Source: Parapedobacter pyrenivorans (GTDB lineage: Bacteria > Bacteroidota > Bacteroidia > Sphingobacteriales > Sphingobacteriaceae). From it: a DNA stretch of 64,000 nt. The position numbers were made by a program, and so were the translations under genes. Location of the stretch: NCBI RefSeq assembly GCF_014636865.1, contig NZ_BMER01000006.1:186001-250000 (forward strand), given 5' to 3'. This document shows positions 17,101 to 62,874 of the stretch, one piece after another. The notes below the pieces were generated by a model that saw only the letters and a program-made list of their open reading frames with translations, did no database searches and was not told the DNA's origin. Every line of letters starts with the position of its first letter. Within the stretch, counting starts at the first letter, position 1.

Positions 17101-17106
17101 GTCCTG

Positions 17107-21671: not shown

Positions 21672-21693
21672 TTAATATATAGCTGATATGATA

Positions 21694-22846: not shown

Positions 22847-22850
22847 GGCA

Positions 22851-24332: not shown

Positions 24333-24356
24333 AGTCTATTATTTCAAAGAATTTGA

Positions 24357-27371: not shown

Positions 27372-27419
27372 TTAAGCTATATCTTAAGTATTGCGTAGTC
27401 TGTATACGTATTTTTATCA

Positions 27420-28712: not shown

Positions 28713-28795
28713 ATTGAGCACTTTATACTGATTATGATGAATGTAACAATTTGGGCAATCTGAATCAATGGAACTACACCCCCTTAATAATGCCA

Positions 28796-28828
28796 CAAAA
28801 GTATAACTTATTGCCGTATCGGTGACAA
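28796..28828 (-). promoter_or_regulatory. Promoter of the act-cta respiratory cluster
   Basis: On the minus strand TTG (28826-28828) is followed after 22 bases by TACTTTTG (28796-28803), a full match to TAnnTTTG with accepted spacing. The leader to the actA ATG at 28712 would be about 75 bases. No comparable promoter is evident further down the 16-gene cluster. Confidence 0.65.
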
Positions 28829-44431: not shown

Positions 44432-44935
44432 ATGAAATTGAAAAAGAATTTATGCGCACCGATATTGATCTTATTCATTAGCACAGTGCTCATCGTATCT
44501 TGCAAAAAAGAGAAATTAACAAACCTGACCCCCGATAACCTCACCGAATGTCCTACCTGCGAGACCCAATTCAGGGAATCGGTACGCTTAGAAGGAGCGC
44601 GGGTCGAACATGGCAACGCCATGGTATTCCAGTACAAAAATTACTGGTCATCAGATCGTTCCACAGGAGCGCCCTACACCGGCTTATTCTTTGAAGTTCA
44701 CGAAGGTCAGTCTTTTTTCGATTTTGATGAAAATACGATTGCCAGTGAAAAGGCGGTACACATAACGATGTGTCCATTTTGCAATACCATCCCGCTAAAA
44801 CCGGTTGGCGGCAAACTAAAAGGGAAACTGGTCGATAAAAACCGATGGTTGGTAGAAGCGGCTGTAGTACTGGCTGCGCCCGATGGAAGCGTTTTTGACA
44901 CCCTTGCCTTTAAGCATTACTTTACGCGAAACTAG
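44432..44935 (+). CDS. Small lipoprotein with two CxxC motifs, function unknown
   Basis: A 167-residue protein. The signal MKLKKNLCAPILILFISTVL leads to a lipobox LIVSC with its Cys at 24. The mature part has two Cys pairs, ECPTCETQF near residue 37 and MCPFCNTIP near residue 112, and is otherwise beta-rich (GLFFEVHEGQSFFDF, KLKGKLVDKNRWLVEAAVVL). I do not recognise the family. The paired CxxC motifs could bind a metal or form disulfides. It follows SusC/SusD of locus 1 on the same strand after a stem-loop; it is the only other gene there and may help bind the same ligand (inference). Confidence 0.7.
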   Translation: MKLKKNLCAPILILFISTVLIVSCKKEKLTNLTPDNLTECPTCETQFRESVRLEGARVEHGNAMVFQYKNYWSSDRSTGAPYTGLFFEVHEGQSFFDFDENTIASEKAVHITMCPFCNTIPLKPVGGKLKGKLVDKNRWLVEAAVVLAAPDGSVFDTLAFKHYFTRN

Positions 44936-45353: not shown

Positions 45354-48300
45354 ATGGAAATTAAACGTTTACAAAAACAATGCATCACAACATTGATTGC
45401 ATGGTGCATTGCCATCGCATCTTTTGCTCAGGGAGCCATAACAGGTACCGTCACAGACGGCACCCAACCACTCCCTGGCGTCAGTGTCACGGTAAAAGGC
45501 ACTAACCGCGGAACAGCGACCAACGGAGAAGGTGAATTCACGATAAGCGCTGCGACTGGCGAAATTATCCTGTTTAGCATGATTGGTTATACTTCAAAAG
45601 AGATCGAGATCGTTTCTCAACGAAACATCGACGTCATTTTGGAATTAACTACAGGGAGTCTCGAAGAGGTAGTTGTCACCGGGCTTGGCGAGTCTAGGGA
45701 ACGACGGCAGCTTGGATATTCGATGACACAAATTTCAGGCGAAGACATTGCCAAGACAAATGCCATTAACCCAATCGCAGCTTTGCAAGGTATGGTTCCG
45801 GGAATGCAGGTTAACGTCGGTACCGGCGGGCCTCAGGCTACTCCCCGATTTCTCATCAGGGGGGCTGGTTCATTGGATCCGTATGGAAACACGCCCCTCA
45901 TTGTAGTAGATGGAATCATAATGGATGACGATGTCGTTCTTCCAAACAGAGGCAGCGAACAAGATTTTGGTAATATTCTGAAAAATTTCAATTTGGATGA
46001 TATTGAGTCCATATCGGTGCTTAACGGCGGTTCAGTAACTGCGTTATACGGGAGCCGCGCGAGTAACGGCGTCATACTAATCACCACCAAGAAAGGATAT
46101 TCGCAAAGGGGAATTGGCGTATCGTTTACGCATACCCAAGGATTCGACGATCCCTATGCGACGGTTGACTTTCAAGACAAATACGGAACGGGCCAACTTC
46201 CAAACCAAACTTATCAAGCTGATAATGATGGCATTGAAATACTGCCCAGCAATCTTTTTGGCTGGAGTTTTGGGCCTGCTTTCGACAGCCGAAGGATAAA
46301 GGACCCTGCAGGTCATGAAATGCTATTCCAACCAAACAATGACATCCTGGATCTTTACGAAACCGGCCGTTACGTTAATTCCAACCTTGCGCTTTCAGGC
46401 GGAAACGAGCAAACTACCTTCCGGATTTCGTATTCGAATTCCTATTCCAAAGGTGTCGTCCCTAAAAATCGATTTGACAGAAATAGTATTGCGCTGCGCG
46501 CAACGCACCGGATCCGTAATGCAGTAATTCTTGACGCGGGTGCAACTTATGTGGGCAGCAACAGTTTTAATCCAAATCGCTCGGGCGGTGGCAACAACCT
46601 GATGTATGGGCTGACTTGGGGCATGCCCCGCGAATATGACCTATTGTATTGGAAGGATCAGTACCTTGATCCGGTAAACGGGGGGACAAGTGATCTCGAT
46701 CCAACAGCTTCACAGGGGGTCTTCTTTACCCTATATGAGCAGCAACAAAGGCAAAAAGAGGAGAATTTTAGGGGCAATATCAATGCGCGAATCAACTTTA
46801 CAGATTGGATTCAGCTCGAAAATAACTTCAGCGTTAATTTGCTGTCGGTGGGAAATGAGCAAAAAACCCGGGGGCAGAACGATGGATTTAATGGAGGAAG
46901 CTATAGTACAAATCAATTCCGCGTATTGCAAAGCCGATATAGAAGCAATCTAAACCTAACCAAAAAATATGGGGATTACGAGGTATTGATTCAAGGCGGT
47001 GCGGAATTAAATCGCTCAGAAGCAAAGGGACTTAATGCCTGGACAAATGGCATGCGTATCCCCGATATCTTTAGGCTATCAAACTCAACGAATGCCATTG
47101 GCTTCTCGGAAAGAAAGCCTGCGATTGCTCAAAGCTTCTCTCTTTTCTTTCAGGGCGCATTAACCTATAAGAATTGGCTCACGCTCAACCTTTACGGCCG
47201 TAATGATTGGGATTCAACCTTATTATATCCAGATGAAAGCGGAACCTATCAGTATTTCTATCCGGGCATGGACCTTGCCTGGACTTTCCATGAAGCCCTT
47301 CGCCTACCTTCAAACGTGTTCGATTTCGCAAAACTACGTTTTTCATATAATCAAGTAGGAAAAGGAACCGATCCCTATCGCGCAATGACTGGCTATTACC
47401 TACCTCAAGGCAATTATATCAGTGCTGAACACGGAGAAATCACACGTTACGGATTTGATTCAAACAACCTGGGAAACAGGAATCTGGTTCCTGAAAGAAG
47501 CTCAACCTGGGAAGCGGGCACCGAAATGAAATTACTGCGTAACCGCCTGGGTCTGGATTTCACATTCTATCAAAAGAATACAAAGGACCAGATTATCAAT
47601 TTACCAGTCGCACAAGAATCCGGTGTCAGCAACGCTTTGATCAACAGCGGGCATATCCGAAATCAAGGTATCGAAGCCCGCATCTATGCTACTCCGATAG
47701 AGAAGAATTACTTTTCCTGGAATGTCGCGTTAAACTATACGCGTAATCGAAGCAAGATTATTGATTTGGCGCCAGGGGTCACGGTAGCTGGTTTGGAAGG
47801 GGACGATGGTATTCGTGCCATAGCAGAGATCGGAGGCGAGTATGGCATCATGGTAGCGCCCTACGGGCATGCAAGGTTTCAAGCACGTGACGCAGAAGGA
47901 AATCCCATTGACCACCCGAGCAATGGCAAGTTTGTTATGTCACCCACCGCAACAGGCGCCTATTACCTCCGATCTCAAAACTATGCTCAGGGCTTAGAAC
48001 GTGAAGTTAAAATCGGATCAACCATGCCTAAATTCCTGGGGAGCCTAGTTAACACCTTTAATTACAAAAACTTCTCATTAAGCGTTATGCTTGATGCCAA
48101 ATTTGGCGGATATGTTTGGTCTCCAACCCATCACTATGGCTCTCAAACCGGCCAAATAGCAAGCACGTTGTGGGGTAGAAAGGGTGAAGAAGGGGGCGTA
48201 AGTTATACCGATGCTAATGGAGATGAGGCGTGGGGTCTTATTCCTGATGGAGTTTTTGCGCAGGGAACACTAATCAATGGACAAGACGTTAGTGGATTAA

Positions 48301-48656
48301 CTTATCAAGAAACGATCGATATGGGATTGAAAAACCCGATGCCCACCTGGGCATTTTATAACAATTCATTTAACTGGGCAAATGGAATCCGTGAGCGGGC
48401 TGCATTCGAGTCATCTTGGGTAATGGTGCGAGATGTTTCGGTGAGTTATGACCTGCCACGGGAAACGGCAGCCAGAATAAAACTAAACAATCTGCGGCTG
48501 ACATTAACCGGAAGGAATTTAGGTTACCTATATAACAACCTGCCCAATAATATTAATCCGGAGGACCTTCGTACAACCGGCGCTACCGCGGCATTCCTCG
48601 GTGGCGGTACGCCGCTCATCCGAAATTTTGCAATCACGGTAAACACGAATTTTTAA
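45354..48656 (+). CDS. SusC/RagA-family TonB-linked outer membrane protein, locus 2
   Basis: A 1100-residue transporter with the same plan as the locus 1 SusC: signal peptide ending SFAQ, carboxypeptidase-like domain (GTVTDGTQPLPGVSVTVKG), a box EEVVVTGLGESRER, plug with VDGIIMDDDVVLPN and GSRASNGVILITTKKG, and a barrel ending TVNTNF. It pairs with the SusD encoded 20 bases downstream. Neighbouring genes encode a GH29 fucosidase and esterases, so a fucosylated, possibly acylated glycan is the likely ligand (inference). Sampled lines of this gene are less GC-rich than the hydrolase genes downstream. Confidence 0.95.
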   Translation: MEIKRLQKQCITTLIAWCIAIASFAQGAITGTVTDGTQPLPGVSVTVKGTNRGTATNGEGEFTISAATGEIILFSMIGYTSKEIEIVSQRNIDVILELTTGSLEEVVVTGLGESRERRQLGYSMTQISGEDIAKTNAINPIAALQGMVPGMQVNVGTGGPQATPRFLIRGAGSLDPYGNTPLIVVDGIIMDDDVVLPNRGSEQDFGNILKNFNLDDIESISVLNGGSVTALYGSRASNGVILITTKKGYSQRGIGVSFTHTQGFDDPYATVDFQDKYGTGQLPNQTYQADNDGIEILPSNLFGWSFGPAFDSRRIKDPAGHEMLFQPNNDILDLYETGRYVNSNLALSGGNEQTTFRISYSNSYSKGVVPKNRFDRNSIALRATHRIRNAVILDAGATYVGSNSFNPNRSGGGNNLMYGLTWGMPREYDLLYWKDQYLDPVNGGTSDLDPTASQGVFFTLYEQQQRQKEENFRGNINARINFTDWIQLENNFSVNLLSVGNEQKTRGQNDGFNGGSYSTNQFRVLQSRYRSNLNLTKKYGDYEVLIQGGAELNRSEAKGLNAWTNGMRIPDIFRLSNSTNAIGFSERKPAIAQSFSLFFQGALTYKNWLTLNLYGRNDWDSTLLYPDESGTYQYFYPGMDLAWTFHEALRLPSNVFDFAKLRFSYNQVGKGTDPYRAMTGYYLPQGNYISAEHGEITRYGFDSNNLGNRNLVPERSSTWEAGTEMKLLRNRLGLDFTFYQKNTKDQIINLPVAQESGVSNALINSGHIRNQGIEARIYATPIEKNYFSWNVALNYTRNRSKIIDLAPGVTVAGLEGDDGIRAIAEIGGEYGIMVAPYGHARFQARDAEGNPIDHPSNGKFVMSPTATGAYYLRSQNYAQGLEREVKIGSTMPKFLGSLVNTFNYKNFSLSVMLDAKFGGYVWSPTHHYGSQTGQIASTLWGRKGEEGGVSYTDANGDEAWGLIPDGVFAQGTLINGQDVSGLTYQETIDMGLKNPMPTWAFYNNSFNWANGIRERAAFESSWVMVRDVSVSYDLPRETAARIKLNNLRLTLTGRNLGYLYNNLPNNINPEDLRTTGATAAFLGGGTPLIRNFAITVNTNF

Positions 48657-48675: not shown

Positions 48676-50370
48676 ATGAAACGATCTTTAAAATATACCA
48701 CTTATCTGCTCTTTTTCACTTTACTTTTTAGTGCAGCGTGTAGCAAGAAAGATTTTGCAGAATATAATACCGATCCGGATGCCGTGGTCGATATCACGCT
48801 ACAACCACTGTTTGCGCGGGCGGTAACCTATGCGCATGATAACGACTTCGAAGCGTTCTATGATAATTACAACTTCATTCCAAGATGGTCCAGAGCGTTT
48901 CTCCAGCGAACAGGCAATGGCATCACGGTTTCTGAATCAGCGGCAAATACCAATAACCGGTATGGACGGTTCTACGGTGGTGTCGGGCCATTGTTGGTAG
49001 ATATCCAACAACTTGTCGATAAAATGCCTGAAGAAGAAAAAGCGCGTTACATTTACATGCGTACCATTCCTACCATTCTTAAAGTGTATTACGCGTGGTA
49101 TGTTTCCGATGTAAACGGCAGCTTAGCATACACAGAAGCATTCGGAGCGCGTTATGGGGGTACGCTTACACCGACATATGAAGCCCAAAGCGAATTGTAT
49201 ACTATTTTTGATCAAGAATTAAAAGAAGCTGTCAACATCCTTAAAACAACCCAACCGGTTGAGCAATTCAGCTATGAAAACAGCGACCTCTATTTCCAAG
49301 GCGATATCGGCAAATGGGTGAAAGCAGCAAATTCACTCCGACTGGCAATTGCATTGCGCCTGTCTAAACGGGATCCGCAACGCATGGCGAGCATCGTGCA
49401 GGAGGTGCTCGCTGATGACGGGGGTGTAATCAACAGCGCGGAAGAAGCATGGGTATTTTATCCCGGCGCGGGATTTACCGGAGGTGGCAACTGGAACATT
49501 ACCGGAAACGGCAGGGCCTTCGTAGGTGATCATGACGTAGTTGACTACATGTGGAATAATCAAGACCCGCGCCTCCGATTTTTCTTCGTTAAAAACATGT
49601 GGAGTGAAGAAAATTTCGAAATCGCCAAACAACAAGGCGTCATACCGGCAAATGCGACATTTGATACCAGAAGATATTACGGCCAGTACTCCAGCCCTGC
49701 TTCTCCCGAAGATCCTGCCAAAATTCGCTTTTTCAGCCCATTACAAATAGAAAACGGTGAAGAAGAAATCACGCTGGATACGGTATCTCGTATTCAAGAT
49801 CGCCTCTTCCAGCCGGAAAATAATGGAGGTACCGGAATGGGCACCATGCCTGTAATCACCTATGCAGACGTATGCTTCATGCGGGCTGAGTTTGCACAAC
49901 GCGGAATGACTGGCGAAAACGCCGAAGAATGGTATTACAAAGGCATAGAAGCATCGCTACGGTTTTACGATGACGCAGCCGACCGAGCCATGGTATATGA
50001 CTACTCACCGTTAACCGATGAAGAAATTGCTAATTTCAAAAGTCAGCCAGCTATCGAGTTTGATCCAGCAAGAGGCTTAGAACAAATTATCATGCAGGCG
50101 TACCTAAATTTTTTCAGAAATTATAACGAAGCTTGGGCCATCGTCAAAAGAACGGGGATGCCTAATGCCAATACGGCTATTGCCTTTGAGCCTTGGTTTG
50201 TTGACAACCAGCCAATTCAGATGCCCCGGCGATTTGTCATTAATTATCCGTTGGCCGGTGACTATAATTATCAAAACCGGTTCGACGCGGTGGAAGAAAT
50301 GCGACAGGATCCAGATTTTGGTGAACCAACCAGCATCCTTGGGCGAGTCTGGTGGGATCAATCGGAGTAA
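48676..50370 (+). CDS. SusD/RagB-family lipoprotein, locus 2
   Basis: A 564-residue lipoprotein; the signal ends in a lipobox FSAAC with its Cys at 22, followed by KKDFAEYNTDPDAVVD, a standard SusD start. Motifs include YYAWYVSDVNGSLAYTEAFG, KWVKAANSLRLAIALRLSK and QAYLNFFRNYNEAWAIVKRTG. It belongs to the SusD/RagB group that pairs with SusC. A perfect 17-base terminator follows its stop by 21 bases, cutting it off from the redoxin gene. Confidence 0.93.
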   Translation: MKRSLKYTTYLLFFTLLFSAACSKKDFAEYNTDPDAVVDITLQPLFARAVTYAHDNDFEAFYDNYNFIPRWSRAFLQRTGNGITVSESAANTNNRYGRFYGGVGPLLVDIQQLVDKMPEEEKARYIYMRTIPTILKVYYAWYVSDVNGSLAYTEAFGARYGGTLTPTYEAQSELYTIFDQELKEAVNILKTTQPVEQFSYENSDLYFQGDIGKWVKAANSLRLAIALRLSKRDPQRMASIVQEVLADDGGVINSAEEAWVFYPGAGFTGGGNWNITGNGRAFVGDHDVVDYMWNNQDPRLRFFFVKNMWSEENFEIAKQQGVIPANATFDTRRYYGQYSSPASPEDPAKIRFFSPLQIENGEEEITLDTVSRIQDRLFQPENNGGTGMGTMPVITYADVCFMRAEFAQRGMTGENAEEWYYKGIEASLRFYDDAADRAMVYDYSPLTDEEIANFKSQPAIEFDPARGLEQIIMQAYLNFFRNYNEAWAIVKRTGMPNANTAIAFEPWFVDNQPIQMPRRFVINYPLAGDYNYQNRFDAVEEMRQDPDFGEPTSILGRVWWDQSE

Positions 50371-50391: not shown

Positions 50392-50428
50392 AATTTAATC
50401 TGCCCGCGTGACGCGGGCAGATTAAATT
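50392..50428 (+). terminator. Rho-independent terminator after locus 2 SusD
   Basis: A perfect 17-base stem, AATTTAATCTGCCCGCG paired with CGCGGGCAGATTAAATT, loop TGA, then TTTTATCTTTAT. This is one of the strongest hairpins in the window. It should end or strongly attenuate the SusC/SusD transcript before the redoxin gene. Confidence 0.88.
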
Positions 50429-50467: not shown

Positions 50468-51067
50468 ATGGTGATTTTAAAAAATTATCCCCCGTTTATT
50501 TTTCCGGCCCTAGCTTGCTTGCTATTATGGATGACCATGTCAGGAACTGCAAGATCGCAACCCGTACCAATCGCCGGGCTCACGCTTACCGACATTCGAA
50601 CGGGCAGTTCTTGGGTCGTTTCAACCGGCGCTGATTCGGCGACGGCTTTTGTGTTCCTATCGCCGGAGTGCCCACTATGTCAGCTATATACCAAAACCCT
50701 CAATGAACTATCTGCGAAATACCAAAGTCAAATCCGGTTTATCGGCATTTTCCCCGGAAATTCCTATTCCCGCGAAGAAATTTTAGCTTTTGCGTCCAAA
50801 TACCAATTGCAAATACCCATTTTTTCGGACCCCGATTTCTCGGCTACGAAGGCATTGGATGTAACCATTACACCGACCGCCGTATTCGTTAAACACAGTA
50901 GACTCCTATACTTTGGAGCAATAGATAATTGGGCATCCGATGTTGGAAAAAAACGCACCCTGATCACTGAGCGGTATCTTGCCGATGCGATCGATCAAAG
51001 TCTATCGCATCAAATCGTTACCGTAGCCCGTACCGAGCCAATCGGTTGTGTACTTAATATGTATTGA
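50468..51067 (+). CDS. Secreted redoxin (AhpC/TSA, TlpA-like) with CPLC active site
   Basis: A 199-residue thioredoxin-fold protein. A hydrophobic N-terminus (FPALACLLLWMTM, then ARSQ) suggests export. The redox site is CPLC in FLSPECPLCQLYTKTL; the cis-Pro loop is TITPTAVFV. The tail EPIGCVLNMY carries a third Cys. A GGAGGA sequence lies 9 bases before the ATG, an unusually good Shine-Dalgarno site for this organism. It ends one base before the cytochrome/monooxygenase gene, so the two are tightly linked. It could reduce or protect that protein's thiols or support its copper loading. Such redoxin-cytochrome pairs occur in Bacteroidetes and Planctomycetes, with no established role. Confidence 0.85.
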   Translation: MVILKNYPPFIFPALACLLLWMTMSGTARSQPVPIAGLTLTDIRTGSSWVVSTGADSATAFVFLSPECPLCQLYTKTLNELSAKYQSQIRFIGIFPGNSYSREEILAFASKYQLQIPIFSDPDFSATKALDVTITPTAVFVKHSRLLYFGAIDNWASDVGKKRTLITERYLADAIDQSLSHQIVTVARTEPIGCVLNMY

Positions 51068-51068
51068 C

Positions 51069-52382
51069 ATGCTTTTTGTTTGGTTATTTTGCTTCCTACT
51101 ACTTGCGAACCACATCCAAGCACAGACCTATTATCAGGATGTGGAACCGATCATCACCTCCAAGTGCTCACCCTGTCATCGGCCCGGCGAAGCTGCTCCG
51201 TTTACGTTGACCTCTTTCGAAGACGTGGCCAAACGCACCAATTTCATCAAAAAAGTAGTCGAAACACGGTACATGCCTCCGTGGCAAGCCGACAACGGCT
51301 ATGTGCACTTTGCCAATGATAGATCACTAACTTCCGAAGAAATCGAAACGATTGTTAAATGGATTGATAAAGGGGCGAGAGAAGGAAAAAAAACAAAAAA
51401 CATCCAATCACAAGACGTGTACAATGTAACCGGCTATGGCCGTTCACCAGACCTTACATTCACTGCCCTCGATACGTTTATCGTCAAAGGAAACAACACC
51501 GAACGTTTCGTCGAATTTAAAATACCCTTCGAATTAGACAAACCATTCAATGTTGAAGCGATTGAATTTTACAGCAACAACAAACGCCTTATTCATCATG
51601 TCAATTATGCCGTACAGGTAATTGCTGACACTACCATCGATATTCATCAAGCACCGTCTTTCGCCAATTATACCGATGGCGGAAAATTATACAACGACCC
51701 TTACGGAATTTTCAAGAAGGATTTGGCCTATTACGGGGGATGGATACCTGGCGCTTCATTCGAAACGTATCCGGCGAATGTAGGATGGGTATTGCCCAAA
51801 CGCGGCGTGATTCTTATGACTGTCCACTTTTCACCAACACCGGTAGATGAAATTTCCATCAACGGCATCAATCTTTTCTTTACAGATAGACCGATTGAAC
51901 GCGAGGTAACCGTCGTTAGCTTCGGATCTGGTGGATTGGGTGAAAATGATATCCGCCCGCTTTTCTTCATGATCCCTGCCGACAAGGTCACCGAGTATTC
52001 ACTTAAATTCACCAACCCAAAAGAGGATTTGTCTTTGCTTTATATCTGGCCGCACATGCACTATATCGGCAAATCGTTCAAAGCCTATTTTACAACAGCG
52101 GCACAGGATACCGTTCCTTTAGTAAACATCCCCAACTGGGACTACCGATGGCAGGAGATGTATCGCTATAAAACGTTTATGAAAATCCCAAAAGGGTCCA
52201 CCATCCATATGGAATGCGCCTACGATAATACGGCAGAAAATCCTTTTAATCCGTTCAGCCCACCACAGCCCATATTTTCCTATTCCAATATGAAGTCTGA
52301 TCAGGAAATGATGACACTCTTGTTGTTATATATTCCCTACCGAGAGAACGATGAATTTTTAACTACCGATAATCCTCATTAA
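51069..52382 (+). CDS. Secreted monoheme cytochrome c fused to a type II copper monooxygenase-like domain
   Basis: A 437-residue exported protein. A signal peptide ends IQAQ. A class I-type heme site CSPCH (33-37) with PFTLTSFEDV and RYMPPWQA forms the first 100 residues. The rest resembles the peptidylglycine alpha-hydroxylating/dopamine beta monooxygenase fold. Candidate ligands of the first copper are His176, His177 (LIHHVNY) and His253 (MTVHFSP); of the second, His329, His331 (PHMHYIG) and Met381 (HMECAYDN). All six are present. The heme could replace ascorbate as electron donor (inference). The ATG at 51069 is chosen over a GTG in frame at 51048. The stop is two bases from the fucosidase gene, so it is in one operon with the glycan enzymes. 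Confidence 0.85.
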   Translation: MLFVWLFCFLLLANHIQAQTYYQDVEPIITSKCSPCHRPGEAAPFTLTSFEDVAKRTNFIKKVVETRYMPPWQADNGYVHFANDRSLTSEEIETIVKWIDKGAREGKKTKNIQSQDVYNVTGYGRSPDLTFTALDTFIVKGNNTERFVEFKIPFELDKPFNVEAIEFYSNNKRLIHHVNYAVQVIADTTIDIHQAPSFANYTDGGKLYNDPYGIFKKDLAYYGGWIPGASFETYPANVGWVLPKRGVILMTVHFSPTPVDEISINGINLFFTDRPIEREVTVVSFGSGGLGENDIRPLFFMIPADKVTEYSLKFTNPKEDLSLLYIWPHMHYIGKSFKAYFTTAAQDTVPLVNIPNWDYRWQEMYRYKTFMKIPKGSTIHMECAYDNTAENPFNPFSPPQPIFSYSNMKSDQEMMTLLLLYIPYRENDEFLTTDNPH

Positions 52383-52384
52383 TC

Positions 52385-53848
52385 ATGCGAATAACCAAAT
52401 GCTATTGCTCCTCCGCCATAGGCTTTCTAATGCTCTGCTGTCTTCCTCTGTTGTCGACAGCCCAGCACCACAACGTCTCGGCAGGTTACGTCCCCCCTTC
52501 CGACCCCTTGGTGCAGCAAAATCTCGCCGAGTGGCAGGACCTTAAATTCGGACTCTTCATGCATTGGGGCACGTACAGCCAATGGGGCATCGTGGAAAGC
52601 TGGAGTCTTTGCCCGGAAGACGAAGGATGGACCGTGAGGCGTGGGCCTCATGCCGAAAACTACTTTGATTACGTCAAGGCCTATGAAAACCTGCAGACAA
52701 CGTTCAATCCCGTCCTATTCAATCCTGAAAAATGGGCCGAAGCAGCCAAACAGGCGGGTATGAAATACGTGGTTTTCACCACCAAACACCACGATGGCTT
52801 TGCGATGTTTGACACCAAGTACAGCGACTATAAAATCACCGACCCGAAAACGCCTTTTTCTAAGCATCCAAAAGCCAATGTGGCCAAAGAGGTTTTCAGT
52901 GCTTTTCGCACCGATGGCTTTAAGATCGGTGCTTACTTTTCGAAACCCGACTGGCACGCTGACGACTACTGGTGGCCTTATTTTCCGCCCAAAGACCGCA
53001 ATGTCAACTATGATCCGGTTAACTATCCGGAACGTTGGGAAAACTTTAAGAATTTTACTTACAATCAGATCGAAGAGCTGATGACCAGTTACGGCAAAAT
53101 GGATATCCTTTGGCTAGACGGTGGTTGGGTGCGCCCCTTTGCGACCATCGATACGACCGTGGAATGGCAGCGCACCATCAAAGTCGAACAAGATATCGAC
53201 ATGGCGCGCATCGCAAAGATGGCGCGTGGCCATCAGCCGGGCTTGCTCGTGGTAGATCGCACCGTGCCCGGCGAATTTGAAAACTACGTGACACCCGAGC
53301 AGCAAGTACCCTCCGAACCACTCGACATCCCCTGGGAAAGTTGCCTCACTATGGGCAACTCGTGGAGCTATGTACCCAATGATACCTATAAGCCCGCCCG
53401 CCAAATTATACATACCCTCGTCAAGATCGTCTCCAGAGGCGGAAACTACCTATTGAATATTGGTCCGAGCCCCGAAGGCGATTGGGATCCGGATGCGTAT
53501 GACCGGCTGAAAGCCGTGGGCGAATGGATGGCCATCAACGGCGAGGGAATTTACAGTACGCGGACAATAGAGCCTTATGCCCAAGACAACATCTATTATA
53601 CCCAACACAAAAATGGCCAAACCAGCTACGCCTTTTTACTATCCGGAAGCGACAGTGATGCAATCCAACTCCCATCCACCATCCAACTGGCTCTGCCGAA
53701 CGGCACCCCGGTCAAACGGGTAGAAATTCTCGGATTGGGTAAGGTAAAATTTAAAATTAAGGAGAATACATTGGAAATCACCGTTCCCGATAGTGTTCGT
53801 ACCCATGCGGATTTGCACTATGCCGCGGTCATCAAATTAAGTCATTGA
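52385..53848 (+). CDS. GH29 alpha-L-fucosidase, secreted
   Basis: A 487-residue glycoside hydrolase of family 29, which removes terminal alpha-linked fucose with retention. A signal peptide ends LLSTAQ. The barrel has GLFMHWGTYSQWGIVES, FTTKHHDGFAMFDTKYSDY and DILWLDGGW, in which Asp245 is the expected nucleophile. The last 100 residues form the usual beta-sandwich. The start overlaps nothing and is two bases after the copper-monooxygenase stop. It is followed after 19 bases by an esterase-like gene, all on the plus strand. Linkage preference is unknown. Confidence 0.93.
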   Translation: MRITKCYCSSAIGFLMLCCLPLLSTAQHHNVSAGYVPPSDPLVQQNLAEWQDLKFGLFMHWGTYSQWGIVESWSLCPEDEGWTVRRGPHAENYFDYVKAYENLQTTFNPVLFNPEKWAEAAKQAGMKYVVFTTKHHDGFAMFDTKYSDYKITDPKTPFSKHPKANVAKEVFSAFRTDGFKIGAYFSKPDWHADDYWWPYFPPKDRNVNYDPVNYPERWENFKNFTYNQIEELMTSYGKMDILWLDGGWVRPFATIDTTVEWQRTIKVEQDIDMARIAKMARGHQPGLLVVDRTVPGEFENYVTPEQQVPSEPLDIPWESCLTMGNSWSYVPNDTYKPARQIIHTLVKIVSRGGNYLLNIGPSPEGDWDPDAYDRLKAVGEWMAINGEGIYSTRTIEPYAQDNIYYTQHKNGQTSYAFLLSGSDSDAIQLPSTIQLALPNGTPVKRVEILGLGKVKFKIKENTLEITVPDSVRTHADLHYAAVIKLSH

Positions 53849-53867
53849 ACACATCAAACATCCAATC

Positions 53868-56414
53868 ATGTCAATTCGTCCCCTTTTATTGCGAATCGGT
53901 TGCTCAGTTATCACAGTATCCCTAGCTTTCGCTGCACTATACGCGCAGACGACCCACCGGTTTACGGAGGGCCTCTCCGTACAGGCACCGGCCAACTATG
54001 GCCGCGAGGCAGTTTATACCGACGTACTGCTATGGCATTATTACCAGGGTGACATCAGCACACCTAAACCGGGACAATCTATCGGTGAATCCGACACCGA
54101 GGAACCTTTAGTATGGACACCAGTGGCCGCCGACACATCGGGGTTCTTCCGACCCCAAGCCGGCGTAGGAGGAAATCTCAATAGTCCCAATAACCCCGCA
54201 GGCCCCGGACGGATAGACCGCCAGACAACTTCTGCGCGACAACCTGCCCCGCAACGGCGAAGATGGGGCCCGGCTTACCTGTATCTCACCTATCAGTCGG
54301 CCAAAGCACAATCCGCGGTACTCAACATCCGTGGAAACAGTGCGGTTCTGATCAACGGCGAACTACACGCGGGCGATCCCTACCGCATGGGATGGATGCA
54401 CATACCCCTGCAGTTGAAAAAGGGATTGAACGAGTTTTATGTGCGCGGTTTGTTTGTTGCCGCAACGCTCGATTTCCCTGCCAAACCGACCTACCTGGAT
54501 ACCGACGATCTTACCCTGCCCGACATTGTACAGGGAAAAGATAAAAGCAGTTTGCTAGCGGGCGTGGTGATCATCAACGCTTCATCAAAAAACTTGGTTG
54601 GTTTGACCATCGGCAGCACTACACAAGGGCAGAAGGCCGGAGCAGACGTACCGGCTATCCCCCCTTACAGCACACGCAAGATCGCCGTGCCGATCAACGC
54701 ATCTATGGTGACGGAAACCGGCGATGTACAAAGCCAGATCACACTCAGCCAAAAAGGAAAGGCCCTTGACCAACGGGAATTGTCCTTACGCAGTGTGGAA
54801 CCGACCGTACCTTACCGGGTTACTTTCGTCAGCGAAATCGATGGCACCATTCAATATTATGCGGTAAACCCTGCAACAGGGGGCGAAAAACCCGGCGATG
54901 CGCTGTTCCTTTCGGTTCATGGCGCGGGCGTGGAGGCGATCGGTCAGGCGCAAGCCTACCAATCCAAAGATTGGGGTACATTGGTGGCACCCACCAACCG
55001 CCGACCTCGTGGATTCAATTGGGAGGATTGGGGGCGTCTCGATGCGCTCGAAGTGCTGGCGCTGGCCAAAGAAGCCCTCAAACCGGATACCCAGCGCATT
55101 TACCTGACCGGACACTCCATGGGTGGTCACGGCACCTGGTTTTTGGGAGCAACCTACCCGGACAAATGGGCTGCCATTGCCCCTTGTGCTGGTTATCCAA
55201 CCCTGATGGGCTACGGCTCTGCCGACGGGCTAATACCCGAACAAGGGCACAACACCCTGGAAAACCTATTGCTCCGTTCCAGTAACCAAAGCAATGTCCC
55301 TGCTTATGCGACCAACTACAGACCGCTTGGTGTGTATGTGTTGCATGGGGATGCCGATCGCACCGTACCGGTCTCCTATGCGCGCCAAATGCGCGACACG
55401 CTTGGCAGGTTTCACCCTAACTTCAGCTACTACGAATATCCCGGCGGCTCGCATTGGTACAGCAACGAAAGCGTCGACTGGAAACCCCTATTTGACTACT
55501 TCAGCTGGCACAAACGTAAGGTCGATACGGCGGTGCATCACATCGACTTCATTACGTCCAACCCCGGTATTTCCGCTTCATACTACTGGGCAACAATCTA
55601 CCAACAGCAGACCCCACTCGAATACGCACGGATTATTTTGGATCGCAACCTGCAGACGGGCGAGATAACAGGAACCACGGAAAACGCCGATTTGCTCCAG
55701 CTTGACGTCAGCGCATTTGCTGCAGGCCAGTCGCTCACCATCCGGCTGGACAGCCTCCCCCCGGTCGAGATTGTTCGGTCGTCGGGCGAAACATCCCTAT
55801 TCCTGAAAAAATCGGACAATAGCTGGCAACGCATCGATCAGCCCGGTCTTGACGAAAAGGGGCCGCACCGTAACGGGACGTTCAAGGAGGCCTTCAACCA
55901 CCGCATGGTTTACGTCTACGGCACCAAAGGAAACGCCCTGGAGAACCAATGGGCGCTGGAAAAGGTACGTTACGATGCCGAATCCTGGTATTACCGGGGC
56001 AACGGCGCTTTTGATATCATACCGGATCACGCGTTTAAACCGGAAGACTATGCCGACCGGAACATTATTCTTATCGGCAATGCTAATACCAATAGCGTTT
56101 GGAACACATTGCTAGCCGATTGCCCCATTCAAGTGAGTTCCGGCAACTTGATAATTGGTAAACAGCACGTCTCCGGAACCGACCTGGGGGGCTATTTTAC
56201 CTGGAAAATACCGGGAAGTAATACGCGTACCGTCGGCGTCATCACCGGAACCGGTTTAAAAGGTATGCAGGCTGCCACAGCCAACCAATATTTTGCCGGC
56301 GCTAGTGGATTTCCGGATTATTTATTTTTCAGCATCGATATGCTCACCAAAGGTCCTGAAGGCATTTTAGGTGCTGGCTTTTATGACAACAATTGGCAAA
56401 TCAGCAAGAACTAA
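53868..56414 (+). CDS. Large secreted alpha/beta hydrolase (esterase or peptidase type)
   Basis: An 848-residue protein with signal peptide ending ALYAQ. The first 270 residues are a beta-rich region (YLYLTYQSAKAQSAVLNIRG), possibly a sugar-binding module. The hydrolase domain is at about 300-560: nucleophile Ser417 in LTGHSMGGHGTW, Asp in LHGDADRTVPVSYA and His in YPGGSHWYSN. After that comes 280 residues I do not recognise. It is closest in outline to PHB depolymerase/prolyl oligopeptidase-like esterases. In this locus it may remove acyl groups from the glycan. The downstream gene begins nine bases after its stop and encodes a related hydrolase. Confidence 0.8.
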   Translation: MSIRPLLLRIGCSVITVSLAFAALYAQTTHRFTEGLSVQAPANYGREAVYTDVLLWHYYQGDISTPKPGQSIGESDTEEPLVWTPVAADTSGFFRPQAGVGGNLNSPNNPAGPGRIDRQTTSARQPAPQRRRWGPAYLYLTYQSAKAQSAVLNIRGNSAVLINGELHAGDPYRMGWMHIPLQLKKGLNEFYVRGLFVAATLDFPAKPTYLDTDDLTLPDIVQGKDKSSLLAGVVIINASSKNLVGLTIGSTTQGQKAGADVPAIPPYSTRKIAVPINASMVTETGDVQSQITLSQKGKALDQRELSLRSVEPTVPYRVTFVSEIDGTIQYYAVNPATGGEKPGDALFLSVHGAGVEAIGQAQAYQSKDWGTLVAPTNRRPRGFNWEDWGRLDALEVLALAKEALKPDTQRIYLTGHSMGGHGTWFLGATYPDKWAAIAPCAGYPTLMGYGSADGLIPEQGHNTLENLLLRSSNQSNVPAYATNYRPLGVYVLHGDADRTVPVSYARQMRDTLGRFHPNFSYYEYPGGSHWYSNESVDWKPLFDYFSWHKRKVDTAVHHIDFITSNPGISASYYWATIYQQQTPLEYARIILDRNLQTGEITGTTENADLLQLDVSAFAAGQSLTIRLDSLPPVEIVRSSGETSLFLKKSDNSWQRIDQPGLDEKGPHRNGTFKEAFNHRMVYVYGTKGNALENQWALEKVRYDAESWYYRGNGAFDIIPDHAFKPEDYADRNIILIGNANTNSVWNTLLADCPIQVSSGNLIIGKQHVSGTDLGGYFTWKIPGSNTRTVGVITGTGLKGMQAATANQYFAGASGFPDYLFFSIDMLTKGPEGILGAGFYDNNWQISKN

Positions 56415-56422
56415 CAACGGTC

Positions 56423-57568
56423 ATGAATCACTACCCGTTAACTATTTATGCCGCAGCGTGCCTGAGTTTGATAACCGGCGCAACTGCCCAGACCCCACAG
56501 GAGGCACTCCGTCAAGCCAAGGCAGTATATCGGCCAGTAGCCGAACAACAATGGGCTCATAAACAAATCATCTATCCCGAAGACTCTGCCATTCTCCGCT
56601 TCGAATATAAAATCTTCGGCGAGAAGCCGGCCGATGGGCGTAGCCTCTATATCAGCATGCATGGCGGTGGTAATACGCGACCCGAAGTCAACGATAAACA
56701 ATGGAGCAACCAACAGTCGCTGTACGCACCCAAAGAAGGCGTATACGTAGCACCACGTGCTCCCACCAATACATGGATGCTGTGGCACGAAAATCACATC
56801 GACAACCTGTTTGATGAGCTGATCAAAACAGCCATTGTCATGGAGGATGTCAACCCCAACAAAGTGTACCTGTTGGGATACTCTGCCGGGGGTGACGGCA
56901 CCTTTCAGCTCGCGCCACGGATGGCCGATCGCTGGGCCGCGGCTTCGATGATGGCCGGGCACCCTGGCGATGCCCCTATCCTCAACTTACGTAACCTGCC
57001 GTTTGCCATATTCATGGGCGGACAGGATGCCGCCTATAACCGCAACGGATTGGCCGCCGAATGGGAAAAGAAATTGGATAGCCTGCAACAAAACGATCCG
57101 GGGGGCTACCTCCATCTGGTTAAGATTTACCCCGAAGACGGTCACTGGATGCAACGCAAAGACACCATTGCCATCGACTGGATGGCAGGCTACAATCGCA
57201 AACCCAATCCGGATAAAGTGATCTGGGTACAGGATGACCGATTGCACGACCGGTTCTATTGGCTGGGCGTACCAGTGGACCAGGCCGCCACCGGAAAAAA
57301 ACTGGTCGCTTTGGTCAACAAACAGACCATCACAATCGAGCACAACGACTACGACACGTTTTACATTTACTTAAATGACGGGCTGATTAATTTAAACAAA
57401 CCCATCAAGGTACTTTTTGAAGGAAAGCAGCTTTTTAAAGGGAAGATCAGGCGCGATCAGCAGTTGACTAACGAAACAGCCAAACTATTGGATGAAGGGA
57501 GAGTAGCCATTGGCCAACTTCGCTATGACAAGGGTAAAATAACGCAAGTAACACCTGGCGAACCCTAA
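56423..57568 (+). CDS. Secreted alpha/beta hydrolase, esterase-like
   Basis: A 381-residue protein; the ATG at 56423 gives a signal peptide ending TGATAQ, and the in-frame start at 56393 would overlap the preceding gene. The nucleophile is Ser154 in LLGYSAGGDGTFQ, the oxyanion region is SMHGGGNTR, the acid is likely in MGGQDAAYNRNG, and the His in YPEDGHWMQRKD. It is shorter than its neighbour and related only in the hydrolase part. It is probably a feruloyl/acetyl esterase-like enzyme or peptidase; the substrate is not evident. It ends the locus 2 gene block. Confidence 0.8.
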   Translation: MNHYPLTIYAAACLSLITGATAQTPQEALRQAKAVYRPVAEQQWAHKQIIYPEDSAILRFEYKIFGEKPADGRSLYISMHGGGNTRPEVNDKQWSNQQSLYAPKEGVYVAPRAPTNTWMLWHENHIDNLFDELIKTAIVMEDVNPNKVYLLGYSAGGDGTFQLAPRMADRWAAASMMAGHPGDAPILNLRNLPFAIFMGGQDAAYNRNGLAAEWEKKLDSLQQNDPGGYLHLVKIYPEDGHWMQRKDTIAIDWMAGYNRKPNPDKVIWVQDDRLHDRFYWLGVPVDQAATGKKLVALVNKQTITIEHNDYDTFYIYLNDGLINLNKPIKVLFEGKQLFKGKIRRDQQLTNETAKLLDEGRVAIGQLRYDKGKITQVTPGEP

Positions 57569-57746: not shown

Positions 57747-60700
57747 ATGAAAAAGTACCTACTACAGAAGCCTCCGGCATTCACCAAAAAAATCCTATTA
57801 CTGATCTTAGGATTAAGTTTGGGTATCGATCTTTTCGCCCAAAACATCCAAATCAGTGGTCGGGTATTCGATGCGGCCGACAATAGCCCACTGACCGGCG
57901 TGTCAGTCTTGGTTAAAGGCACCAATACCGGCACAAACACCGATGCTTCAGGAAGTTTTGCCATCACGGCAGCCGGCGATGCGGTATTAGCGTTTTCTTT
58001 TTTGGGCTACCTTTCTCAGGAAATACCTGTAGACGGGCAAAAGCTATTGACCATCCGGTTACAGGCTGATCAAGCGCAGCTAGGTGAGGTCGTTGTTACG
58101 GCATTGGGAATCACGAAAGAAAAGAAAAGCCTGGGCTATTCCGTAACAGATATTAAAGGTGGCGATCTGTCCGTCACCAACGAAGTAAATCCCATCAACG
58201 CCCTGCAGGGTCGGGTAGCTGGTGTGCAAATCGACCAGGGAGCCGGAGGATTGTTCGGCAACTCCAAGATTTTAATCCGCGGAAACTCTACCCTAAGCAA
58301 CAACAACCAGCCTATTTTTGTAATCGACGGCGTCATTATGGACAATGACGTTTTTGGTGGGAATGGCCGCGATTTCGGCAATGACCTGAAAAACCTCAAT
58401 ATGGAGGACTTTGAAAGTGTGTCTATTTTAAAAGGTTCATCAGCTGCGGCATTATATGGCTCACGGGCGATCAACGGCGTAGTGTTGATCACGACAAAGA
58501 AAGGGCAGGCACGATCCGGATTGGGTGTGGAATTCAACCAGACGGTCAATATTTTCGACCCATATGCCGGACCGGATTTCCAAAATGTGTTTGGGGGAGG
58601 CACCAACGGTCCGTTTTTCACAGACTTCCGCGACCCTAATTACGATCCCGATAAGGCGTACTATACCAAGGTATTTCCCACAGATCCGGCAACGGGTAAG
58701 CCCTATATCGATGCAGGCCGAAACCGCGAATTGGAAAATTGGGGACCGCGGATGGAGGGGCAGGAAGTGTTGAATTATGACGGCACACCTACGCGCTACC
58801 TACCCCAACCCACTAATTTTCTCGATGCATTCCGCAAGGGTGTCGGATATAATACTAACGTCGCTGTGAGTGGCGGATCGGATCGTTCTACCTTACGGTT
58901 CTCCTACAATCGCAATGAAAGTAAGGGCATCGTTTATAATAACAACCTCGAAAAACATGCATTCAGCTTACGGGCAACGCATAAGCTGAACAATCGCATC
59001 AGCCTCGATGGCAGTGCCGATTATACCAGTTTCCGCGGGCTCAACCCGCCACGATTGGGTGGACTCGATTCGTATGCTTCCTACAACTACGGAAAGCTAT
59101 TCTCCTGGATGTTGCCCCGCAATTATGACACACGGTATTGGATGCAACGCGAACACTACACCAGTACCCTCGGTGGCGCACCAGACCGGGGCAATCCCGA
59201 CGAGATCAATCAAGCACCCGAAAGCCGCTTCTGGTTCAATCTTTTTGAAAATCAATACCTGCAACGCGAGCAAATGATCCGGGGGCGCCTAGCGGTAACC
59301 GCTTCCCTAACTGACTGGTCGAAATTAATCCTGGAAGGGAATTTCAACAACATCTATACAAAAACAGAAGAAAAAGAACTTGGTCAGGGACAAGATTTTA
59401 CCGGCGGACTTTACTCGCTAAGCAATGAAGTCAAAGAAAGCTATTTTCTGAAAGGAATGTTGACCGTAGATCGCACCCTCGCACCCGATCTGGAGCTGAG
59501 CGGTTACATCGGCGGTGAAATCCAACGCGCCGAAAATTCATTTACAAAAGGTTTTACGGATGGAGGGTTGAGTTATCCCGGCAACTATTTTCTGGAAAAT
59601 TCAGTCAATCAGCCCAAAACGGAAGGTGGAGTCACGTTTCGCAGGGGGTTCAATTCGCTGTATGCCAGCGCCGACTTCGCATACAAAAATCAACTCTTTC
59701 TACAGGGAACATGGCGGGGCGACTGGGCGTCGGCATTGACTTATTCGAATGGTACAGGCAATAATTTCTACAGTTACCCCGCTGCAAGCTTATCCTGGCT
59801 ATTTACGGAAACCTTCCAGCTGCCTGAATGGTTATCTTATGGCAAACTGCGCACCAATCTAGCTGCACTGGGTAGTGATGCGGATGTTTTTGTCATTAAT
59901 CCAGGTTTTGAAATCAGTGACTATACCCGCACCGGTAATGGACTGACGCTGCCGATATCGACTTTTGGTGACCGAAAAGTCCGCGCAGAAAACCTGAAAC
60001 CCGAACGGAAAATTGCCAAAGAAATCGGACTTGAAGCGCGCTTTCTCAACAGCCGCCTGGGGGTTGACTTCAGTTGGTACCAAGACAACACATATAATCA
60101 AATTGTAGATATTACAACACCGTTTGAATCGGGCGTAGATGCCATTCTAATTAACGCCGGAAACATTCAAAACAAAGGTATTGAGCTAGCTATCGATGCT
60201 GTACCGTTGCGCAGCGATAACTTCTCGTGGTCTACTGCTATCAACTATTCACGGAATCGCAATTTAATTGTTGAATTATACGAAGGCAGAAAGGAATTCA
60301 ATTTAGGGGCAAACATTGCGGAGATAAGCAGTTGGGCCATCGTCGGAAAATCATACGGAACCCTCCGGAGTACCATACAGGCCCGTAAATTTCAAGCCAC
60401 CGATGCATCGGGGAACCCGATAGATCATCCGAACAATGGTAAGAACGTGCTGGAATACCGTACGGATGCACGCGCCGCATTCCCGGCGCGCAGCAATACA
60501 ATCCAGGATATTGGCGACATCAACGCGAAATTTCGTGGCGGCTGGGATAACACCTTTCGTTATAAAAACCTCAGTCTGAATGTACTGGTGGATGCCAAAA
60601 TCGGGGGAGACTTCGTAATGGCCACCTACCGCTACGGCACGCATACCGGCGTGTTACCCAACACGCTGGTTGGCCGGGATCCGGAATACGGCGGCATCAC

Positions 60701-61175
60701 GTGGGTCAGCGCATGGGATGATCAAGAATACGACGATGGCATCATCCCAGATGGCGTATTCCCGCAAGGCTTCCAGGCACCACAGCCCGGTGGCGGACAA
60801 GCCAATGTGGGTGGTATGACCTACCAGGAAGCCTATGAGCAAGGACTCGTGGAGCCTACGCATGCGCCACACTACTATTACCGTTATGGGTCTTCTTCTA
60901 CCGGTGTGTCCGACTATTGGATATTCGAAAATTCCTGGGTCTCCCTTCGCCAAGTGGCACTAAGTTATACATTTCCACAGGCTTTTTGCCGAAAGCTAAA
61001 ACTTAATGCATTGAGTCTTGCCGTAATCGGACGCGATCTGCTGTATCTTTACAACAGCCTCCCCTACAATTACAACCCTGCTTCGAACAACTCGAACAAT
61101 ACGGCTTTTTATGGTGAAGAGGGCTTTTTACCAATGACGCGATCGTGGGCATTTACATTAAAGGTAGGATTCTAA
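57747..61175 (+). CDS. SusC/RagA-family TonB-linked outer membrane protein, locus 3
   Basis: An 1142-residue transporter. A signal peptide ending LFAQ is followed by a carboxypeptidase-like domain (GRVFDAADNSPLTGVSVLVKG), GEVVVTALGITKEKK, a plug with VIDGVIMDNDVFGG and GSSAAALYGSRAINGVVLIT, and a barrel ending TLKVGF. It is the most similar in N-terminal sequence to the locus 1 SusC. The SusD gene follows by 13 bases, and a GH18 gene after that, so a chitin-like or N-glycan-derived GlcNAc oligomer is a reasonable ligand (inference). Confidence 0.95.
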   Translation: MKKYLLQKPPAFTKKILLLILGLSLGIDLFAQNIQISGRVFDAADNSPLTGVSVLVKGTNTGTNTDASGSFAITAAGDAVLAFSFLGYLSQEIPVDGQKLLTIRLQADQAQLGEVVVTALGITKEKKSLGYSVTDIKGGDLSVTNEVNPINALQGRVAGVQIDQGAGGLFGNSKILIRGNSTLSNNNQPIFVIDGVIMDNDVFGGNGRDFGNDLKNLNMEDFESVSILKGSSAAALYGSRAINGVVLITTKKGQARSGLGVEFNQTVNIFDPYAGPDFQNVFGGGTNGPFFTDFRDPNYDPDKAYYTKVFPTDPATGKPYIDAGRNRELENWGPRMEGQEVLNYDGTPTRYLPQPTNFLDAFRKGVGYNTNVAVSGGSDRSTLRFSYNRNESKGIVYNNNLEKHAFSLRATHKLNNRISLDGSADYTSFRGLNPPRLGGLDSYASYNYGKLFSWMLPRNYDTRYWMQREHYTSTLGGAPDRGNPDEINQAPESRFWFNLFENQYLQREQMIRGRLAVTASLTDWSKLILEGNFNNIYTKTEEKELGQGQDFTGGLYSLSNEVKESYFLKGMLTVDRTLAPDLELSGYIGGEIQRAENSFTKGFTDGGLSYPGNYFLENSVNQPKTEGGVTFRRGFNSLYASADFAYKNQLFLQGTWRGDWASALTYSNGTGNNFYSYPAASLSWLFTETFQLPEWLSYGKLRTNLAALGSDADVFVINPGFEISDYTRTGNGLTLPISTFGDRKVRAENLKPERKIAKEIGLEARFLNSRLGVDFSWYQDNTYNQIVDITTPFESGVDAILINAGNIQNKGIELAIDAVPLRSDNFSWSTAINYSRNRNLIVELYEGRKEFNLGANIAEISSWAIVGKSYGTLRSTIQARKFQATDASGNPIDHPNNGKNVLEYRTDARAAFPARSNTIQDIGDINAKFRGGWDNTFRYKNLSLNVLVDAKIGGDFVMATYRYGTHTGVLPNTLVGRDPEYGGITWVSAWDDQEYDDGIIPDGVFPQGFQAPQPGGGQANVGGMTYQEAYEQGLVEPTHAPHYYYRYGSSSTGVSDYWIFENSWVSLRQVALSYTFPQAFCRKLKLNALSLAVIGRDLLYLYNSLPYNYNPASNNSNNTAFYGEEGFLPMTRSWAFTLKVGF

Positions 61176-61188: not shown

Positions 61189-62874
61189 ATGAAGACATTC
61201 ATCAATTCTTATAAATTCGGTATCTGTCTGGTCTCCACCGTACTCTTGCTAAATGCCTGTACGAAGAACTTCGGTGATATGAATACCGATCCCAACTTGG
61301 TAACGAAACCCAACATGAAATTCCTATTTACCTTTACTGCAGATAAACTGCGTCCCTCGGGTACGGAATGGATTTGGGAAAGCCTGGAGCAACTAATGCG
61401 TTATACCCAGCAGGTGAGCGCAAGTCCTTATGAACTATCGGGCAGTATAAATACACGCTATCGTACCTATTATGCCGACATTCTTCCCAACCTGGTAGAG
61501 ATTCGGCACCAAATCGACCAAGAGCAAGATAAAGACCGGTATCAGAAAATGGGGGCAGTTACGTATATATTAGGTGTATATTATGGAATTCGGGTAACCG
61601 ACATGAATGGATCCATCCCCTATTCGGAGGCCATTTTGGCCCGGTACGAAGATAAATTCGATCCGCTATTCGATACCCAACAAACCCTGTTTACGCAGTG
61701 GCTGGGCGAATTGGATAACGCCATTCAAGTGCTATCCGACGCTAGCTTGCTCAATCAAGAGAGTTATGGTGATGCCGATATCTTTTACCAAAGCGATTGG
61801 GTAAAATGGATAAAGTTGGCCAATACGCTCAAGCTGCGGATTGCCGCACGTCTTGAAAACCAAGATAGCGAAGCAACGCGCCGGATCTTCCAACAAGTGA
61901 TGCAGGACGCCACCGGCCCCATTGACGGAGACGAGATGCAGCTGCAATACCTGAATCCCACGGACGCTTTTCTGGGTGCAGATGTGGATTATCGAAGCCG
62001 CCGCTATGCGAGCAGGCAAATGGTCCGTTTCATGAAAAAATCCGATGATCCGCGTATCCGGATATACTTCGATCAAAATGATTTGACAGGTTCGTTCCGA
62101 GATACACTTGCCAAATATAATGTTCAACTGCCGTCATTTATCGATCCGGATGACCCATTCGTTATGTATCAGGGCGGGCCTGCAGATTGGACGACCGACC
62201 AAAGTATCACCCAATGGATGAGTAATCCTTTTCAGGTAAGCCAATACAGCCGCTATTTCCTGATTTCACCGGTCAACAGACTTTTTTTATCCCCCAAACT
62301 AAACGGGGCTACCGGTAATGCTTTACATGTACTGGTATCCTACGCGGAAACCTGCTTTTATATCGCAGAAGGTATCCAAAAAGGCTATGGCGCAGGTATC
62401 GATACCAAAGGTTCCGTATCCGACTGGTACAACAAAGGCATTGCCTCCTCGATCCGTACAATGAACGAAGTTGCGCGGGAAGCCGGCTCAACGATGGCAT
62501 TCACGGGCGACGGGACGGCAGAAATCCAAGCCTACCAACAACATCCACAAGTCGCATTGGGATCTTCCAATGACTTGGAGCGCATTTATATCCAGCAGTA
62601 CCTTGCGTTTTTCCGCCTGCCCAATGAAGCCTACGTACTGTGCAGAAGAACAGGCTATCCCATTGCAGGATCGGCATATTATCCCATGGAATCCTTCACC
62701 GAACCAATTCCCCGACGCTTCGGGATCAACGATCCCGGTGAGGTTAATCGTGCAAATTGGGAAAGTGCTTATCAGGAGCAAGGCTTTACATTGCGTGCAG
62801 TTGATGCGCAGACACTGAGTGAGGAACGGGTATGGTATGATAAAAATGCCCCAACGTTTGGAGGTGGGAATTAA
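61189..62874 (+). CDS. SusD/RagB-family lipoprotein, locus 3
   Basis: A 561-residue lipoprotein; the signal ends in a lipobox LLNAC, with Cys at 24, and continues TKNFGDMNTDPNLVTKPN. Family motifs include YYGIRVTDMNGSIPYSEA, DWVKWIKLANTLKLRIAAR and IYIQQYLAFFRLPNEAYV. It shares the N-terminal NTDPN with the locus 2 SusD, but not with locus 1. The stop overlaps the start of the GH18 gene by one base (TAATG). Confidence 0.93.
   Translation: MKTFINSYKFGICLVSTVLLLNACTKNFGDMNTDPNLVTKPNMKFLFTFTADKLRPSGTEWIWESLEQLMRYTQQVSASPYELSGSINTRYRTYYADILPNLVEIRHQIDQEQDKDRYQKMGAVTYILGVYYGIRVTDMNGSIPYSEAILARYEDKFDPLFDTQQTLFTQWLGELDNAIQVLSDASLLNQESYGDADIFYQSDWVKWIKLANTLKLRIAARLENQDSEATRRIFQQVMQDATGPIDGDEMQLQYLNPTDAFLGADVDYRSRRYASRQMVRFMKKSDDPRIRIYFDQNDLTGSFRDTLAKYNVQLPSFIDPDDPFVMYQGGPADWTTDQSITQWMSNPFQVSQYSRYFLISPVNRLFLSPKLNGATGNALHVLVSYAETCFYIAEGIQKGYGAGIDTKGSVSDWYNKGIASSIRTMNEVAREAGSTMAFTGDGTAEIQAYQQHPQVALGSSNDLERIYIQQYLAFFRLPNEAYVLCRRTGYPIAGSAYYPMESFTEPIPRRFGINDPGEVNRANWESAYQEQGFTLRAVDAQTLSEERVWYDKNAPTFGGGN

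Follow-up and report, generated by a model that had tools for sequence, protein, structure and literature searches.

Among type II copper monooxygenases, the well-studied ones are ascorbate-dependent animal enzymes that make hormones and neurotransmitters. The Sus paradigm of glycan use is largely hydrolytic. We analysed a stretch of 64,000 nucleotides (nt) from Parapedobacter pyrenivorans (contig NZ_BMER01000006.1, positions 186,001 to 250,000; G000:C6:186001-250000 within a 5.9-Mb genome; hereafter "the window"), in which a gene following SusC, SusD and redoxin genes encodes a cytochrome c fused to a copper core of the PHM/DBM fold. We call this protein CuMO. It resembles DBH and PHM in its two-domain beta core and in its three-histidine and two-histidine-plus-methionine copper sites, which occur in the same order. 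It differs from them in being bacterial and Sus-linked, in exhibiting a tryptophan (Trp327) at the position of PHM Arg240 and, with respect to DBH, in carrying a c-type cytochrome at the N-terminus in place of the DOMON domain.

Lytic polysaccharide monooxygenases (LPMOs) paired with cellobiose dehydrogenase are also copper oxygenases fed by a heme domain, and cleave polymers outside the cell. Their fold and copper site differ from those of CuMO, which is presumed to be periplasmic and to act on a small substrate. The P450 of porphyran use is cytoplasmic. This P450 demethylates 6-O-methyl-galactose in porphyran use by Bacteroidota (PMC10033563); therefore an oxidative step in the sugar use of these bacteria is not new in itself. 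The system is similar to CuMO in dedicating an oxygenase to a sugar, and different in consisting of a P450, a ferredoxin and a ferredoxin reductase, in contrast to the copper, attached heme c and signal peptide of CuMO. Among the matches listed in the openly licensed literature, we found no type II copper monooxygenase in Bacteroidota sugar use or in a Sus locus. The fold, the kind of heme module and the kind of locus are each known; their combination is new.

In our estimate there is an even chance that CuMO is a type II copper monooxygenase, soluble and periplasmic, fed by its own heme c and acting on a glycoside, glycan fragment or glycopeptide imported by SusC/SusD, with the redoxin keeping it active.

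Fold, copper ligands and heme motif of CuMO

The fold, the ligand sets, the heme motif and the gene order with its conservation were computed directly. A comparison with PHM, chosen beforehand as a check, found the two-domain PHM/DBM core in the predicted CuMO structure, together with both sets of copper ligands. This match in fold is not attributable to chance. The structure matches to DBH and PHM exhibit 10-14% identity, and DBH and PHM lead among the matches listed when the LPMO fold is considered.

Conservation was assessed in 86 proteins from 100 stretches (the window and 99 fetched loci), each longer than 300 aa, scoring above 60 bits and having distinct last 250 residues. Fifty of them, scoring at least 400 bits, constitute the Sus clade; this cutoff was picked after a gap (413 versus 331 bits) was visible. 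Every place of at least 400 bits in the family- and phylum-wide searches was fetched. The strains are not all independent, as L054/L064, L128/L129 and L131/L132 are near-identical and L058 and L062 belong to the same assembly. The fragment L072, a split copy in genome G195 (L135), and L065 and L073 (where longer antisense frames were kept) were left out of the 86.

His176, His177, His253, His329 and His331, placed correctly in the initial annotation, are conserved in all 86 relatives. The attached cytochrome c recognized at the outset has its heme motif CxxCH at residues 33-37; C33, C36 and H37 are present in 86/86, as is Met69, a candidate axial heme ligand. Met381, initially proposed as the sixth copper ligand, was rejected: it is methionine in only 9 of the 50 clade members (isoleucine in 32), and methionine is not among the top five residues in the other 36. 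Its role is assigned instead to Met414, which is methionine in 86/86; its pairing with DBH Met487 is derived from the ends of the structural alignment (residue 423 to DBH 496), not from a printed residue pair.

PHM Arg240 binds the peptide carboxylate. CuMO is not classed as PHM proper because Trp327 replaces this arginine in 50/50 clade members. Trp327, two residues before the CuM ligand His329, is one of 29 positions at which the same residue occurs in 47 or more of the 50 clade members and in no more than 12 of the 36 others. These clade-specific positions suggest a specialised pocket.

The redoxin model (pLDDT 89.6) has 2CVB (E-value = 2.1e-12), 2YWO and 3U5R as its nearest folds. The CPLC motif noted initially is present in the window, but only its first cysteine, C68, is invariant (57/57). 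The second, C71, is found in 45/57 and is serine or alanine in the other 12, so that the family has no conserved CxxC pair. The C-terminal Cys194 occurs in 57/57, and we propose that C68 and C194 may form the redoxin cysteine pair. In L065 (Planctomycetota) and L069 (Pukyongia) a redoxin, the heme domain and the copper core are on one polypeptide, with the same order and ligand motifs as the window pair, which supports a joint function of the window redoxin and CuMO. Unlike the window, L069 has no SusC/SusD label among the neighbours shown. We found no characterisation of this single-chain type.

These data also bear on whether CuMO is an oxygenase at all. A copper-binding protein that retained the fold for electron transfer, copper trafficking or peroxide handling would suit the redoxin partner and the CCP_MauG di-heme gene before the copper-core gene in L034, and no activity of any CuMO family member was found in the literature searched. 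However, both full copper sites are invariant in 86/86 relatives and would not obviously be needed by a mere carrier; we regard this explanation as very improbable.

Conservation and distribution of the SusC-SusD-redoxin-CuMO unit

The initially described order of SusD, CPLC redoxin, cytochrome c/copper protein, GH29 and two esterase-like hydrolases on the plus strand was recovered. In 49 of the 50 clade loci SusD precedes CuMO by one or two genes on the same strand; SusC likewise precedes it by two or three genes in 49, and the redoxin gene is adjacent in 44. SusD is present within three genes in 50/50 clade loci versus 1/36 outside (the SusD profile used may overlook remote SusD families), and random placement of CuMO within its clade was rejected. 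Outside the clade the redoxin is adjacent in 13/36. Eighteen of 19 further distant stretches that were fetched hold a called CuMO frame, and no SusD label stands among the genes shown; four of the 18 run into the contig end, with no gene upstream of CuMO.

The 50 CuMOs form one clade (SH-like approximate likelihood ratio test, SH-aLRT, 99), two changes on the tree suffice to explain the Sus label, and 49 of the 50 unit SusDs fall in one clade (SH-aLRT 97). Both trees are quick searches supported by SH-aLRT only, with several long branches, and the control of other SusDs comprised 17 proteins. The nearest named relatives of the window CuMO are from Sphingobacterium. The membership of CuMO in Sus-type loci is supported as stable across Sphingobacteriaceae, Chitinophagaceae and Ohtaekwangia.

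The family-wide search gave some match in 51 of 399 genomes, in part to the heme domain only, and at least 400 bits in 38 genomes (39 places). G195 additionally holds the split gene: in L135 the copper gene is divided between two separate frames, with the SusC-SusD-redoxin order intact. Phylum-wide, 44 of 395 genomes had any match and 8 reached 400 bits. Within the host genus, CuMO was found in two of nine genomes searched (the window genome and G002). The distribution is therefore patchy.

Placement at random in relatives had been named beforehand as grounds for doubt. It is non-random within the clade, but in sister groups CuMO and the redoxin stand beside genes that seem unrelated (translations judged by eye); therefore an association with glycan genes is not intrinsic to the pair. 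One exception outside the clade is L171, where SusC-SusD is followed by a 225-aa protein without Pfam family (L171:3303-3980) and then CuMO; this is a second, independent Sus linkage of a distant copper-core gene. In L167 the SusC/SusD genes are on the strand opposite to the copper-core gene. The SusC-profile hits of L174, L176 and L177 (within three genes, opposite strand) have DUF5686 and a carboxypeptidase-regulatory domain by Pfam, and a 547-aa neighbour in L177 is a beta-helix protein by Pfam. L205 has a similar SusC-profile match.

The neighbours in sister groups would agree with general periplasmic redox housekeeping: the pair would serve to mature or protect, for example, a copper site or a protein of the cell surface, and its position after SusD would be an inherited accident that linkage has preserved. 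Forms of at least 500 aa, which make up 19/36 outside the clade versus 0/50 inside, the type IX secretion tail of one of them (L045) and five SusD relatives lacking the pair (see below) point the same way. Yet the linkage holds across several families while the outer genes change, and the clade-specific positions including Trp327 suggest specialisation. We regard housekeeping as an improbable explanation.

Predicted function and substrate

The redoxin and CuMO are predicted to be periplasmic because they exhibit ordinary signal peptides and no lipobox (both judged by eye). We infer from the computed features not only this location but also the copper and oxygen chemistry, the heme-to-copper electron flow, the redoxin role and the substrate. 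The substrate delivered to the periplasm by SusC/SusD would be a glycoside, glycan fragment or glycopeptide. A periplasmic donor would give electrons to the heme c domain, which would pass them to CuH; the heme c electrons might serve instead of, or besides, ascorbate. With O2 bound at CuM, the substrate would be hydroxylated at a C-H bond, possibly with removal of an O- or N-alkyl cap. The redoxin, most likely a thiol reductant or copper-loading partner of CuMO, would maintain thiols or copper in the reduced state, and breakdown would be completed by the fucosidase, the esterases and further hydrolases.

Hallmarks of a polysaccharide utilization locus are present within the window: tandem SusC/SusD, GH29, GH18 and a ROK regulator. 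Near CuMO in the 50 clade loci are a ROK regulator (43), GH29 (28), PAP2 (21), FG-GAP/ASPIC (20), GH3 (17) and the 848-aa esterase type (10). The glycosidases at one clade locus or another comprise GH29, GH18, GH3, GH125 (L033, L054, L064), GH20 (L033, opposite strand) and a BNR protein (L131). No set of glycosidases is shared by all units, several of which lack such genes altogether. N-glycan-like material would be compatible with this mix; fucosylated N-glycans or glycopeptides are one candidate substrate because GH29, GH125, GH20 and GH18 occur near one clade locus or another.

The same inventory can be read with the hydrolases merely co-located and a heme-fed copper monooxygenase acting on a non-glycan substrate (a peptide, a siderophore-like or an aromatic plant compound) taken up by a SusD-like_2/RagB-type importer. 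The substrates are peptides for PHM and a catecholamine for DBM, the SusD of the unit has matches to PF12771/PF12741, several units are without a marker glycosidase, and ASPIC/UnbV-FG-GAP and PAP2 proteins occur at 20/50 and 21/50 loci, some together with GH29. Against this stand GH29 near 28/50 and ROK-type regulators near 43/50 loci; a peptidylglycine substrate in particular is unlikely in view of Trp327. We judge a non-glycan substrate to be possible but unlikely.

Several observations weigh against a copper monooxygenase dedicated to glycan use. No GH29 is seen in the fetched stretch of 22/50 clade loci. Six of the 50 have no adjacent redoxin; therefore the redoxin and CuMO were not always gained and lost together. 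The window CuMO is just under the Pfam Cu2_monoox_C cutoff (22.6 versus 23), and among four further proteins of the family L065 (30.0) and L045 (27.1) exceed it and L068 (22.2) and L069 (19.5) do not. In the converse test, 31 SusD places of at least 359 bits were found in the 399 family genomes (up to three candidates per genome scored), and five of these close SusDs (G302, G215, G263, G085 and G200) are in genomes without CuMO match, and the 20 kb fetched for each contain neither redoxin nor CuMO. G302 has the order SusC-SusD-esterase-GH29, both redoxin and CuMO being absent, and G085 has GH3-GH29-SusC-SusD. G215 and G263 have SusC-SusD without adjoining marker hydrolases, and in G200 SusC is spread over three frames. 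An exclusive tie of SusD to CuMO is thereby rejected; the importer does not need CuMO.

That SusC-SusD-redoxin-CuMO represents an undescribed periplasmic oxidation module, fed by heme c and hydroxylating or oxidatively uncapping an imported glycoconjugate, is a tentative proposal about which we are rather doubtful. If true, CuMO would be, within the literature searched, the first protein of the PHM/DBM fold to be wired to a heme and also the first to occur in a glycan locus. The heme-bearing bacterial branch would then offer a simple genetic system for electron delivery to CuH and the need for ascorbate, a copper-based oxidative step would be added to the Sus paradigm, and certain SusC/SusD loci would be predicted to be fully functional only with oxygen.

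Feature coordinates and further observations of the locus

Table 1. Features of the window (positions are those of the window)
Feature	Position	Strand	Basis or remark
ROK-type regulator, NagC-like match below curated cutoff	37943..39145	+	upstream of cluster
SusC-type TonB-dependent transporter of the four-gene unit	45354..48656	+	open reading frame (ORF)
SusD-like lipoprotein of the unit (PF12771, PF12741)	48676..50370	+	ORF, Pfam
Terminator-like 17-bp hairpin and T-run	50392..50428	+	folding z -3.99
Redoxin, thioredoxin-like fold, signal peptide by eye	50468..51067	+	
CuMO, cytochrome c fused to PHM/DBM-fold copper core	51069..52382	+	ATG at 51069
Heme-binding CxxCH, residues 33-37	51165..51179	+	86/86 relatives
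Copper core, residues 125-428	51441..52352	+	structural alignment to DBH and PHM
His176-His177, predicted CuH ligands (DBH His262/His263)	51594..51599	+	
His253, predicted CuH ligand (DBH His333)	51825..51827	+	
His329-Met-His331, predicted CuM ligands (DBH His412/His414)	52053..52061	+	
Met414, predicted CuM ligand (DBH Met487), QEMM motif	52308..52310	+	
GH29 alpha-L-fucosidase (PF01120)	52385..53848	+	
848-aa esterase/prolyl-oligopeptidase-like hydrolase	53868..56414	+	
Dienelactone-hydrolase-like esterase	56426..57568	+	
SusC of downstream pair	57747..61175	+	similarity to other SusCs
SusD of downstream pair	61189..62874	+	outside unit SusD clade, sister in tree
GH18 chitinase-type hydrolase	62874..63959	+	

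CuMO starts one base after the redoxin stop, and GH29 starts two bases past the CuMO end, exactly as initially described. The operon membership drawn from this spacing is qualified by the 97-nt gap between SusD and the redoxin, which contains the terminator-like hairpin. Such a hairpin, no more than 120 nt past the end of SusD, is present in 38/43 unit loci (32/43 by a different test), compared with means of 0.47/43 and 1.13/43 in mononucleotide and neighbour-preserving shuffle controls. Because this hairpin recurs past the SusD stop, expression after SusD may be attenuated, and the hairpin probably lowers expression of the genes that follow. Similar hairpins occur after 7/9 other SusDs in the same loci, which rejects it as a unit-specific feature, and after CuMO in 2/50.

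Another SusC/SusD pair also precedes the unit in the window, and between the two SusC/SusD blocks (44432-44935) lies the gene of a small protein that has two CxxC motifs and matches no Pfam family. A GH92 gene at 30754-32997 precedes the redoxin by about 17.5 kb; GH92 also occurs in L188, a locus without the redoxin/CuMO pair. Respiratory genes like those of alternative complex III and cytochrome oxidase (translations judged by eye) lie at 13707-28796; that this cluster, at about 13.7-28.8 kb, is a possible electron source for CuMO is a conjecture.

In L034 (G046) the CCP_MauG di-heme protein directly before the copper-core gene is encoded at 7411-9339. The PAP2 protein of 21/50 loci (L055:14716-16029 and equivalents) often follows an FG-GAP/ASPIC protein placed directly after the copper gene. 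One PAP2 protein tested matches the vanadium haloperoxidase 4CIT (E-value = 1.5e-142), which suggests that metal redox enzymes of two kinds stand together in PAP2-bearing Sus loci.
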